46,438 nucleotides of DNA, from the NCBI GenBank assembly GCA_001767495.1, contig MELA01000072.1:1-46438 (forward strand), given 5' to 3'. This document shows positions 10,174-37,711 of this stretch, one piece after another. A program made the translations under genes and the position numbers. This stretch comes from Acidobacteria bacterium RIFCSPLOWO2_12_FULL_65_11. GTDB lineage: Bacteria > Acidobacteriota > Vicinamibacteria > Vicinamibacterales > CAVVIG01. The notes beneath the pieces are model-generated. The model ran no database searches and had not been told where the DNA came from. It saw nothing but the letters and a program-made list of their open reading frames with translations. How positions within the stretch are numbered: position 1 is the first letter of the stretch; each line of letters starts with the position of its first letter.

Positions 10174-10275
10174 TGCCAACCTTTACTAATGGCGCGTGGG
10201 GCCCCGCCCCCACGCGCTCGAAGACCTCGGCCGCGAGCGTAGACTCTCGGCCTCGGCAGAACTCTCGGCGCAGGC
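10174..10275 (-). repeat. Family 2 repeat, copy B
   Basis: Reverse-strand reading: GAGAGTCTACGCTCGCGGCC, GAGGTCTTCGAGCGCG, GGGGGCGGGGCCCC (core 10198-10205), ten bases, AGTAA (10183-10187), nine bases, then the purS ATG. The AGTAAAGG text also supplies the likely ribosome site of purS. It fills the purB-purS gap and shares long stretches with copy C at 28805-28895. Confidence 0.75.
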
Positions 10276-11617: not shown

Positions 11618-11669
11618 TAGTGTCCGGCTTCAGCCGGGCTCGAAGGTCCGCCTAAAGGCGGACACTACG
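11618..11669. repeat. Opposed pair of family 1 palindromes
   Basis: GTAGTGTCCGGCTTCAGCC(GGGC) (core 11622-11639) and GTCCGCCTAAAGGCGGACAC (core 11646-11663, followed by TACGG) face each other, so the flanking GTAGTGTCC/GGACACTAC also pair and the whole 52 bp can form one long or two short hairpins, like a BIME. It lies between purB and the upstream M16 gene and could attenuate transcription or protect mRNA ends. Confidence 0.9.
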
Positions 11670-14995: not shown

Positions 14996-16342
14996 TCAGG
15001 TGATTGTCACATCGACCCATTCATTCCGAGCACGACCAGGCGGAATTCTCACCTTCAAATAGTTGCCGGTCACGACGAGTGACCCGTCCTCGAGGGTCAG
15101 GCCTCGGTGTACGGTGCCGAGCTGCGACCGGCGGAACGCGGTCGCAAGCTGCCGGCCGATTTCACGCACGCGACGCGCGCGCTCGCGCACGACAGAGCCA
15201 TGCGCTCGTCCGCTTAGCGTTGATGCGACGGTTCCTGGCCGGTCGGAATAGGGAAACACGTGCAGATGGGTCAGGGGCGAAGTCTCGAGATAGCCGGCAA
15301 GCTGGTCGAAGTCCTCGTCGGTTTCGCCAGGGAAGCCGACGATGATGTCGGAGCCGATGGCGGCGTGCGGCAGGCGCGCGCGAATGTCGTCGATGAGCGA
15401 GGCGTACTGCTCGATCGTGTAGGGCCGGCGCATGGCGGCGAGCACCCTATTACTTGCGTGCTGGAGCGGCAGGTGGAAATGCGGCGCGAAGCAGTCTGAG
15501 GTTGCGACGAGGTCAACGATGTCGCGCGTGCAGTCCCTAGGCTCGAGCGAGCTGATGCGAAACAGAAGGTCCGGCTGAAGCCGGACACTACGTACGTCGG
15601 TGAAAGCGGCGATCGCGCGAAGCAAATCGATCAGGGAAGAACGCGGGGACAGGTCGCGGCCGTAGGAGCCGAGGTGGACGCCGGTCAGTGCGATTTCCTT
15701 GAACCCGGCCGCTACAACGCGATCGACCTCGGCGAGCAGGCCGTCGATCGGCTCGCTTCGCGGCCGGCCACGCGTCGCCGGGATGATGCAGTAGCTGCAG
15801 GGCTCGGCACAGCCGGTCTGCACGCGCAACGTGAACGCCGTCCGGCCCGCGACGCCCGGCTCGATGGCGGCGCCACAGCTTCCCTCGCCATCGCCGAAGC
15901 GTTCAGCTGTCGAAAGGTCCGGCTGAAGCCGGACACTACGACCGAATGCGTCCGGCTGAAGCCGGACACTACGACCCCCAGCGACACGACCCCCAACGCC
16001 ATCGGCGTCCGCATCGGTGTCGACGAGCGACACGAGCCTTGGTTTGTCGTCGTTCGAGACGAGGCGGATTACGTTGGGCAGGTCGCGCACTTCGTCCGGG
16101 CGCCTCGTGGCGTAGCAGCCGGTGACGACGATCTTCGCGTCCGGGTTGGCGCGCGCGATGCGGCGGACGGTCTGGCGCGCGGCTTGATCGGCGCTCGCCG
16201 TCACCGAACAGGTGTTCACGACCACCAGGTCCGCCGCCCCCGGCGCCGCCGCGACGGCACCATGCCTACGGAACTCCTCCTCGAATCCCAGGGAGTCGGC
16301 CTGGTTCACGCGACAGCCAAAAGTAATGACGGCGTACTTCAT
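14996..16342 (-). CDS. mtaB: tRNA t6A37 methylthiotransferase MtaB with repeat-derived insertions
   Basis: Radical-SAM enzyme that converts t6A37 to ms2t6A37 in tRNAs reading ANN codons. The N-terminal cluster domain has FGCRVNQAD, VVNTCSVT and VTGCYA, the three cysteines of the auxiliary cluster. The radical-SAM motif is CAEPCSYC; then come SLEPRD, FHLPLQHASNRVL and IIVGFPGETDEDF; the C-terminus resembles a TRAM domain. 448 residues, slightly long. Three family 1 palindromes lie inside the gene, all in frame and each encoding SVRLQPD: two in the linker between the cluster and radical-SAM domains (about residues 125-142) and one inside the radical-SAM domain (about 252-258) just before the strand leading to ISSLEP. 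No stop or frameshift results, so the protein is probably functional. Confidence 0.93.
   Translation of the reverse strand: MKYAVITFGCRVNQADSLGFEEEFRRHGAVAAAPGAADLVVVNTCSVTASADQAARQTVRRIARANPDAKIVVTGCYATRRPDEVRDLPNVIRLVSNDDKPRLVSLVDTDADADGVGGRVAGGRSVRLQPDAFGRSVRLQPDLSTAERFGDGEGSCGAAIEPGVAGRTAFTLRVQTGCAEPCSYCIIPATRGRPRSEPIDGLLAEVDRVVAAGFKEIALTGVHLGSYGRDLSPRSSLIDLLRAIAAFTDVRSVRLQPDLLFRISSLEPRDCTRDIVDLVATSDCFAPHFHLPLQHASNRVLAAMRRPYTIEQYASLIDDIRARLPHAAIGSDIIVGFPGETDEDFDQLAGYLETSPLTHLHVFPYSDRPGTVASTLSGRAHGSVVRERARRVREIGRQLATAFRRSQLGTVHRGLTLEDGSLVVTGNYLKVRIPPGRARNEWVDVTIT
15569..15593 (+). repeat. Family 1 palindrome inside mtaB (radical-SAM domain)
   Basis: GTCCGGCTGAAGCCGGAC (15569-15586) followed by ACTACG. 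Read on the gene strand it encodes VRLQPD in frame between LLRAIAAFTD and LLFRISSLEP. In relatives this point is expected to be a short loop, so the repeat was tolerated as an added loop. Confidence 0.95.
15917..15974 (+). repeat. Two family 1 palindromes inside mtaB (interdomain linker)
   Basis: Cores at 15917-15934 and 15950-15967, 33 bp apart, same orientation, each followed by ACTACGAC. They encode two SVRLQPD peptides separated by AFGR. The 33-bp period keeps frame. They lie in the variable linker before the radical-SAM cysteines. Confidence 0.95.
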
Positions 16343-28804: not shown

Positions 28805-28895
28805 TAATTACTCCGCTCGCCGGGGCCCCACCCCCGGCTCGCTCTAAGACCTCACGCTCGAGCGTAGACTCTCGCGCTCGGCTGAAGGCTCAAGG
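28805..28895 (-). repeat. Family 2 repeat, copy C
   Basis: Reverse-strand reading: GCGAGAGTCTACGCTCGAGC, GTGAGGTCTTAGAGCGAGCC, GGGGGTGGGGCCCC (core 28822-28829), nine bases, AGTAA (28808-28812), three bases, then the ATG of the non-catalytic M16 gene. It is nearly co-linear with copy B. After the ATG both copies A and C read ATGCTGAC, so the conserved element may extend a few codons into the gene. Confidence 0.75.
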
Positions 28896-28897
28896 TG

Positions 28898-30256
28898 TTA
28901 CCGGTTACTTCCAGAGTCCGGGATCACGGTGAGCTCGACGCGGCGATCGAGCGGCAGGAAGCGGGCCGCCACCGCGCGGATGCCCGACGGTGACAGGGCC
29001 CGATACCGCGCCAGATCTTCGTTGAACCAATCGGGATTGCCGGTTCGAGCGAAATAGCCGTTGAGCTGGTCGGCCACGCCACCGAACCCAGCGAGGCTTT
29101 CCATCCGGTTGTAGAAAGACGCCTCGAACTGGTTGACGGCTCGCTCAACCTCATGCGCGGTCGGTGCCTCCTGCTGCAGCCGGGCGATTTCTTCGTCAAT
29201 CACGCTCAGCAGTTCCGCAATGGTATGGCCCGGGCGTGGCGTCGCGATGATTTGAAAAGACGATGAGAGCGCAGCCGAAGCCTGAAAGGCATTGACGCTC
29301 TGCGCAATCTGCATGTCGTACACGAGACGCTTGTAGAGCCGTGAGTTCTTGCCGCCGGCCAGCACGTTGGCGGCCACGTCGAGCGCCGCGTCCCCAGGCT
29401 CCATGAACCGCGGCGTCAGCCACGCGAGGTAGAGCCTCGGCAGCTGCACGCGGTCGGCGATGACCCTCCGCTGCACTCCGGTGAGCGACACGCCGGGAAT
29501 CGTCATCGGATCGATGGGGGCGCCTGACTTCACGTCGCTGAACCACTTCTCGACGAGCGTGCGCGCGGTGGCGGTGTCGAGATCCCCCGCGACGACCAGG
29601 CTGGCGTTACTCGGCGCGTAGAATGTCCTGAAAAACGCCACCACATCGTCCTGGCTCGCAGCCGTGAGATCCGGCATGTACCCGATCACCGGCCAGCGGT
29701 ACGGGTGACCTTCTGGGTAGAGCATCTCGTCGAGCACGATGCTGGCCATGCCGTACGGGCGGTTCTCGTAGCTCTGGCGGCGCTCGTTCTTCACAACCTC
29801 GCGCTGCGCATCGACCGTCTGCGGCGTCATTGTATCGAGCAGATATCCCATGCGATCGGACTCGATGAAGAGCGCCAGCTCGAGCGCGTTCGATGGGACG
29901 TTGATGTAGTAGTTGGTGAAGTCGTTGCCGGTCGACGCGTTGTTCTCGCCACCGGCCGCCTCGAGCCACGCGTCGAGCTCGCCGTACTTCATATGACCCG
30001 AGCCCATGAACATCAGGTGCTCGAAAAGGTGGGCGAAGCCGGTGCGCCCCATCCGCTCGCGCGCCGAGCCGACGTGGTACCAGGTGTTGACCGTCACGAT
30101 CGGCACGCTGTGGTCCTCGTGGATGATCACCTGGAGCCCGTTGGGCAGCGTGAACTGCGCATAAGCCACCTGAATCCGCGGCGACGGGCTTTGGGCGACG
30201 ACGGGGGTCGCCAGGACGAGCGCCAGGGCCAGAAGAACAGCGGCAGGTTTCATCAA
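28898..30256 (-). CDS. Exported M16 zinc protease, catalytic subunit
   Basis: 452 residues with a Sec signal (AAVLLALALVLATPVVAQ, cleavage near 22), so periplasmic. FTLPNGLQVIIHEDHSVPIV is followed by the zinc site HLFEH (76-80) in GFAHLFEHLMFMGSGHM, with the third ligand in VVKNERR (E158). ENNASTGNDFTNYYINVPSNALE and ERRQSYENRPYG are typical of bacterial PqqL-like processing peptidases. It pairs with the non-catalytic M16 protein downstream; the pair probably forms a heterodimer that degrades peptides in the periplasm. A single family 1 palindrome follows upstream of its start. Confidence 0.93.
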   Translation of the reverse strand: MMKPAAVLLALALVLATPVVAQSPSPRIQVAYAQFTLPNGLQVIIHEDHSVPIVTVNTWYHVGSARERMGRTGFAHLFEHLMFMGSGHMKYGELDAWLEAAGGENNASTGNDFTNYYINVPSNALELALFIESDRMGYLLDTMTPQTVDAQREVVKNERRQSYENRPYGMASIVLDEMLYPEGHPYRWPVIGYMPDLTAASQDDVVAFFRTFYAPSNASLVVAGDLDTATARTLVEKWFSDVKSGAPIDPMTIPGVSLTGVQRRVIADRVQLPRLYLAWLTPRFMEPGDAALDVAANVLAGGKNSRLYKRLVYDMQIAQSVNAFQASAALSSSFQIIATPRPGHTIAELLSVIDEEIARLQQEAPTAHEVERAVNQFEASFYNRMESLAGFGGVADQLNGYFARTGNPDWFNEDLARYRALSPSGIRAVAARFLPLDRRVELTVIPDSGSNR

Positions 30257-30293: not shown

Positions 30294-30326
30294 TGTCCGG
30301 TACGTAGTGTCCGGCTTCAGCCGGAC
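30294..30326 (-). repeat. Single family 1 palindrome between M16 and padR
   Basis: TACGTAGT precedes the core GTCCGGCTTCAGCCGGAC (30309-30326), in reverse orientation relative to most copies. A partial TACGTACGTGTTGTCCGG lies just before it, so a second degraded copy may be present. It lies between two divergent genes. Confidence 0.9.
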
Positions 30327-30423: not shown

Positions 30424-30765
30424 ATGGCCAAACAGGCAGACCTGCTGCAGGGCACCCTCGACATGCTGATTCTGAAGGCCGTGTCGATCGGCCCGCTGCA
30501 CGGCTACGGCGTCCTGCTTCGCATCCAGCAAATCTCGAAGGAGCGCCTCGAAATCCAGCAGGGCTCGCTCTATCCGGCGCTGTACCGGCTCGAGCACCAA
30601 GGTCTGATCGACAGCGAGTGGGGCGAGTCCGACAACAAACGCAAGGCGAAGTACTACCGCTTGACTGCGGCCGGCCGGCGGCAGCTTCGGGAAGAAACGC
30701 GCAAGTGGAACAAGATGACCGACATCATCGCCGGCATTCTCAACGCGCCCCCCGAGGGTGTATGA
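30424..30765 (+). CDS. PadR family transcriptional regulator
   Basis: 113 residues, one winged-helix domain: LLQGTLDMLILKAVSIGPLHGYGVLLRIQQIS, then the recognition helix and wing IQQGSLYPALYRLEHQGLIDSEWGESDNKRKAKYYRLTAAGRRQL. The C-terminal helix (REETRKWNKMTDIIAGIL) is the dimerisation part. In acidobacteria such genes precede large permeases and are thought to repress them until a ligand, often a small toxic compound, is present. Its stop overlaps the permease start (ATGA). The operator-like repeats lie directly upstream. Confidence 0.95.
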   Translation: MAKQADLLQGTLDMLILKAVSIGPLHGYGVLLRIQQISKERLEIQQGSLYPALYRLEHQGLIDSEWGESDNKRKAKYYRLTAAGRRQLREETRKWNKMTDIIAGILNAPPEGV

Positions 30766-36210: not shown

Positions 36211-36325
36211 GTCCGGCTGAAGCCGGACACTACGACTGTTCGGGTCCGCCTGACGGCGGACTCCACATGCGACATCCCTCTAGCACTCCTCAGCCACGTA
36301 CGTGGCGTCCGGCTTCAACCGGAAC
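36211..36325. repeat. Cluster of three family 1 palindromes
   Basis: Cores at 36211-36228 (GTCCGGCTGAAGCCGGAC), 36244-36261 (GTCCGCCTGACGGCGGAC) and 36307-36323 (GTCCGGCTTCAACCGGA, opposite orientation). The first begins 8 bp after the permease stop. The two subtypes (GGCT/AGCC and GCCT/GGCG stems) alternate as at 11618-11669. The first could end the permease message. Confidence 0.9.
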
Positions 36326-37655: not shown

Positions 37656-37711
37656 GTCCGGCTGAAGCCGGACACTACATACGTCTCTACATACGTCTCT
37701 ACATACGTCAC
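37656..37711 (+). repeat. Family 1 palindrome followed by a 12-bp tandem repeat
   Basis: GTCCGGCTGAAGCCGGAC (37656-37673), then three copies of TACATACGTCTC (37676-37711, the third with AC at its end). The tandem seems to have grown from the ACTACATACG tail that normally follows the palindrome. The rest of the 37619-37807 gap shows no gene. Confidence 0.92.

Follow-up and report, generated by a model that had tools for sequence, protein, structure and literature searches.

How does a palindrome that recurs in intergenic DNA come to lie three times, each time in frame, within an intact tRNA-modification gene, and what does it mean for the protein that receives it? The gene in question, mtaB, occupies positions 14996-16342 on the minus strand of the window (the whole 46,438-nt stretch of DNA analysed here) and forms an unbroken frame of 448 codons encoding a 448-aa tRNA methylthiotransferase. 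The product is assigned to MtaB by a UPF0004 domain (residues 2-95), a Radical_SAM domain (residues 174-350) with the invariant cysteine motif C178/C182/C185, and TIGR01579, its top match among all models (E=1e-103; 347.7 bits against a curated cut-off of 357). Its AlphaFold model has a mean pLDDT of 86, and structure comparison places an MtaB model closest in fold, followed by MiaB and RimO.

Identical palindromes with the core GTCCGGCTTCAGCCGGAC lie inside this frame at 15569-15586, 15917-15934 and 15950-15967, each with an ACTAC (= GTAGT) tag on the plus-strand side of the core. With their tags, and read in gene order on the minus strand, copy 1 spans 15950-15972, copy 2 spans 15917-15939 and copy 3 spans 15569-15591, the GTAGT tag of the last extending to 15591. 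Each is translated as SVRLQPD, copy 1 at residues 125-131, copy 2 at 136-142 and copy 3 at 252-258; copies 1 and 2 are spaced 33 bp apart and thus in frame. The coordinates, the continuity of the frame and the translation of all three sites bear out a preliminary description of this DNA, which had proposed that an intergenic palindrome recurs three times in frame in an intact mtaB and reads SVRLQPD at each site. Its placement of two copies in a linker and one in a radical-SAM loop likewise agrees with the AlphaFold model. Copies 1 and 2 share an inter-domain linker that is predicted to be disordered, with pLDDT below 50 at residues 115-165, while copy 3 makes up the loop of the radical-SAM domain that joins helix 237-252 to strand 260-265, where pLDDT falls to 73 between flanks of 93-94. 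MtaB thus gains seven residues per element, and the three copies apparently sit harmlessly within it.

Misassembly of repeats into mtaB is extremely unlikely. Although the genome assembly is a repeat-rich draft of 153 contigs, the reading frame is intact on both sides, the 23-nt copies have unique flanks, and this repeat recurs at matching positions in related MtaBs from other assemblies.

The repeat is a GTAG-tagged REP: it combines an unpaired 5' GTAG with a short perfect stem and short loop in the 20-40 nt range, a high and mainly intergenic copy number, and a REP-flanked RAYT. Its core GTCCGNCTNNAGNCGGAC forms 596 exact palindromes in the 3.55-Mb genome, in which the reversed control of the core has no match. 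Alignment of 188 copies by orientation gives a consensus of about 25 nt, YGTAGTGTCCGSCTTYAGSCGGACC, with the tag conserved at G 99%, T 96%, A 91% and G 99%. One stem pair varies between G-C and C-G, with both sides switching together (116/66), and the single strand folds as a hairpin (z=-4.4) whose stem measures 7 bp by DNA folding and 8 complementary positions by sequence. Four of the six reading frames are open, including the VVSGFSRT frame that the preliminary description had called open; the other two contain stops, one forward (TAG, supplied by the tag) and one reverse (TGA or TAA). The statement that the element never produces a stop is therefore true of the mtaB sites and untrue of the element itself.

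The window holds 15 matches at two or fewer mismatches, against 0.53 expected from shuffles. Outside mtaB, these include a minus-strand intergenic tandem array at 1947-2106 (four exact copies and one degenerate), an intergenic pair at 11622-11663 (no strand assigned; one copy degenerate, the other with a GTCCGCCT..AGGCGGAC stem), a plus-strand copy at 30304-30326 that lies between called genes 28898-30256 and 30424-30765 and has its GTAGT tag at 30304-30308, an intergenic cluster at 36211-36324 (no strand assigned; one exact and two degenerate copies), and a single minus-strand intergenic copy at 37656-37678. The period of the array at 1947-2106 is exactly 32 bp and so not divisible by three, in contrast to the 33 bp seen in mtaB. 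Similarly, 14 of 20 direct tandem spacings between genes equal 2 mod 3, versus 33 bp in mtaB.

A candidate for the mobilising enzyme is present. The genome encodes one Y1 transposase (G000:C123:34284-34784, locus L031/L172), 167 aa long and bearing an HVH motif, which matches the NCBIfam model for REP-associated tyrosine transposases, NF047646, at 90.5 bits (cut-off 80). Two REPs lie upstream of its gene and three inverted REPs downstream. Furthermore, this REP also adjoins the RAYT gene in each of the five relatives whose RAYTs are nearest, in most of them on both sides. Across the family, REP count correlates with RAYT score (Spearman 0.45, p=0.02), with counts taken from a strict GTAGTG pattern in genomes that are phylogenetically non-independent. 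Counting against a RAYT-driven explanation, a RAYT search found no match in relatives such as G011, G012 and G022, though REPs are present in them. The link between REP and RAYT is one of association. In this soil acidobacterium, which the names of its nearest MtaB records and the general features of the group mark as Vicinamibacteria-like (Acidobacteria group 6), the REP has reached some 600 copies, and its mobilisation in trans was probably the work of the sole RAYT, itself flanked by inverted REP arrays.

The REPs are unevenly distributed with respect to genes. In a sample of about 1.0 Mb, where a home-made codon-usage caller predicted 824 genes, intergenic DNA makes up only 16% yet contains 137 of 194 REP copies (p=7e-65). 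Well inside genes lie 30 of the 194 copies (15%, versus 71% for random positions), an approximately 4.6-fold depletion. The suggestion of a special ability to enter genes thus finds no support. The 30 in-gene copies read as VSGFSRT (9), SVRLQPD (9, three of them in mtaB), VRLKPDT (7), GPAEAGH (2) or otherwise (3). All four open frames are therefore in use, which rules out SVRLQPD as a privileged peptide and indicates that genes seldom receive the element and tolerate it when they do. Inserts of this sort recur in other genes across the genome, with the VSGFSRT frame among those used. Many of the hosts are housekeeping genes with Pfam domains flanking or spanning the insert, and they include PurH, a class-I tRNA synthetase, an Lhr helicase, a UvrD-like helicase, a penicillin amidase, a protein kinase and an ABC exporter whose membrane and ATPase domains are separated by a stretch holding two REPs.

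Several apparent N-terminal insertions, as in CoaE and AdoMet synthetase, probably reflect start-site errors, since the Pfam domain begins after the REP. A GTG within the REP (GTAGTGTCC) also begins several called genes, whose products then start with VSGFSRT (L094:652, L119:7939, L120:13466, L122:15210 and L132:11385); either the REP supplies these start codons or the start sites are wrongly called.

We consider it highly probable that the element is a GTAG REP, most likely RAYT-mobilised in trans and mostly intergenic, whose in-gene copies are tolerated in open frames at linkers and loops. Copies landing in genes would survive only where the frame is open and free of stops and where a flexible linker or a surface loop takes the insert. 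SVRLQPD in MtaB is then most likely tolerated ballast without a function of its own. It is very improbable that the peptide has been selected for altering MtaB function, for example through linker length or tRNA handling. The MtaB linker does bear REPs in four genera, and further relatives have other repeats in linker and loop; against this, in-gene copies across the genome use every one of the four open frames, unrelated peptides from different repeat families occupy the same sites, and the linker is predicted to be disordered. In addition, in-gene copies are neither more decayed nor more conserved than intergenic ones, with perfect copies making up 77% of each class. With this equality, the adaptive form of the proposal that the repeat diversifies proteins is not supported. 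A passive form is plausible, since sequence resembling decayed REPs occurs in the loops of relatives.

Comparison with related MtaBs supports the proposal that a mobile or copied repeat was inserted in frame. In most relatives the KPRL helix runs directly into the TTAERFGDGDGSCG segment and the inserts are absent from the alignment, while those relatives that have the peptide in MtaB also have the DNA palindrome. No relative was found in which SVRLQPD is conserved without the palindrome, the result that the preliminary description had named as refuting it. Among the carriers, G012 (locus L033) has one REP in the linker, G026 has a linker pair, and G025 combines one linker REP with a REP in the radical-SAM loop that is oriented oppositely to that of the present genome (G000). 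Other repeats are found at these sites as well. The MtaB linker of G006 (L011 1228-1521) contains 8-9 tandem 33-bp units of another GTAG palindrome, GTAGCGCAGGACTTCAGTCCTGG, that read VVAQDFSPG, and the radical-SAM loop of MtaB in G012 (L033) holds a different, 74-nt repeat that matches the window copy at 87% over 75 nt. This second family, with the core GTGGGGCCCC, is intergenic in the window at 10193-10266 and 28818-28891; it has a weaker match in L043, and its core was matched seven times in the 0.96 Mb of this genome that was scanned.

With the in-gene rate scaled from this genome, 0.08 relatives would be expected to have a REP in mtaB, a generous figure in that the rate includes some N-terminal misannotations, and three were seen (P about 8e-5). 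Site preference, inheritance or selection must therefore add to neutrality. The mtaB flanks of L001 (G000) and L003 (G025) are saturated at synonymous sites, with a 4-fold identity of 0.43, yet their REP codons are identical, a pattern that counts against plain inheritance followed by drift; a single ancestral insertion followed by neutral drift at the MtaB linker is accordingly disfavoured. A regional null test for MtaB of L001 and L003 is inflated, as its null windows contain the other REP copies.

REP-bearing genes were traced across 27 family genomes to ask whether mtaB is special, and the answer rules it out as a unique hotspot: PurH, the tRNA synthetase and ABC genes show like recurrence. 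The PurH loop is REP-bearing in G026, G012 and G025 as well, with orientation and frame unchanged, and the same holds for the class-I tRNA synthetase loop in G026 and G011. The two-REP arrangement of the ABC linker is shared by G000 and G026, and G021 has another arrangement. Sequence resembling decayed REPs, in the same frame and matching at 15-17/23, lies at the tRNA-synthetase loop of other genera. The PurH site of G016, a congener of G026, carries a different GTAG palindrome in the same frame. A PabB-type gene, in contrast to these recurrent sites, has no REP in five close relatives. A limited set of loops is thus occupied repeatedly. New to this study is the observation that the same loops of MtaB, PurH, tRNA synthetase and ABC transporter hold REPs, either intact or apparently decayed, or repeats of other families across genera, usually in the same frame. 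Among relatives (L223-L245), the class-I tRNA-synthetase loop before (V/I)EI(E/D)T grades from a near-perfect REP at 21-22/23 to 15-17/23 in the same frame, as if REPs were decaying into ordinary loop, and ABC exporters of two genera place REPs at residues 349/369 (L283) and 334/350 (L285), with stem sequences that differ in the first REP.

Shared frame and orientation argue against fully independent random landings; the recurrence may reflect either inheritance with conversion or re-insertion at preferred sites. It is possible, and we propose it tentatively as a variant on timing, that the insertions are old: REPs of the family ancestor would have been inherited and, depending on lineage, kept intact, converted by newer REPs or left to decay. 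The common orientation and frame at the MtaB linker, PurH and tRNA-synthetase sites in several genera point this way, as do the ABC arrangement common to G000 and G026 and the decayed-looking synthetase loops. Such a history sits poorly with identical REP codons between saturated flanks and with the different palindrome at the PurH site of G016. Carriers also scatter on the MtaB tree, with 5 changes among 5 carriers, on a topology of low support in which row L020 was misread. Somewhat less probable, in our view, is a preference of the RAYT for a short DNA target, by which a loop containing such a target would repeatedly take REPs in one orientation and phase. The same concordance at the PurH, tRNA-synthetase and MtaB linker sites would follow, and the 5' flank of the REP shows a weak preference (Y before GTAG 92%, A at -7 50%, C at -10 54%). 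However, this preference may belong to the element itself, the MtaB radical-SAM loop orientations are opposite in G000 and G025, and G021 adds a third ABC linker arrangement.

A bolder picture, which we think rather unlikely, treats a few protein loops as permanent docking points for REPs throughout a bacterial family. RAYT-driven REPs, of families that change over time, would settle again and again at the same codons and in the same frame, decay into new loop sequence and be replaced, and a mobile hairpin would in this way steadily supply new protein sequence. The panel of MtaB, PurH, class-I tRNA synthetase and ABC linker loops makes insertion, decay and re-insertion datable, and the occupied loops show where important enzymes tolerate 7-30 additional residues.

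In its mechanism this system is already known. GTAG REPs inside genes were published in 2013 (Di Nocera et al. 2013, PMC3733652), in a survey that lists 24 GTAG REP families, reports the highest number of in-frame intragenic copies in O. terrae and suggests linker and loop sites for them. Our element resembles those REPs and REPtrons in its GTAG tag, short perfect stem, high copy number, clustering, mostly intergenic location, REP-flanked RAYT and occasional in-frame genic copies. It differs in its host, an acidobacterium with a RAYT; the Acidobacteria transposases of that survey are TIRYTs, and the long inverted repeats on either side of them have no relation to REPs. A literature search for REPs in this acidobacterial class found no papers. 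Rickettsia palindromic elements and CGTC repeats are similar in placing palindromes in frame within functional genes. Identity with them was rejected, given a GTAG tag and a RAYT: RPE-4/6 are CGTC-tagged and lack a dedicated transposase, whereas here a GTAG tag accompanies a flanking RAYT, and RPE-1 is longer than this REP. The population shares with REPINs its association with a RAYT and some inverted pairs, although many copies here are single or in direct tandem. Taken with the tolerated in-frame copies reported in other phyla, the acidobacterial case adds a well-supported member to the few bacteria in which REP palindromes have been seen to turn into protein sequence.
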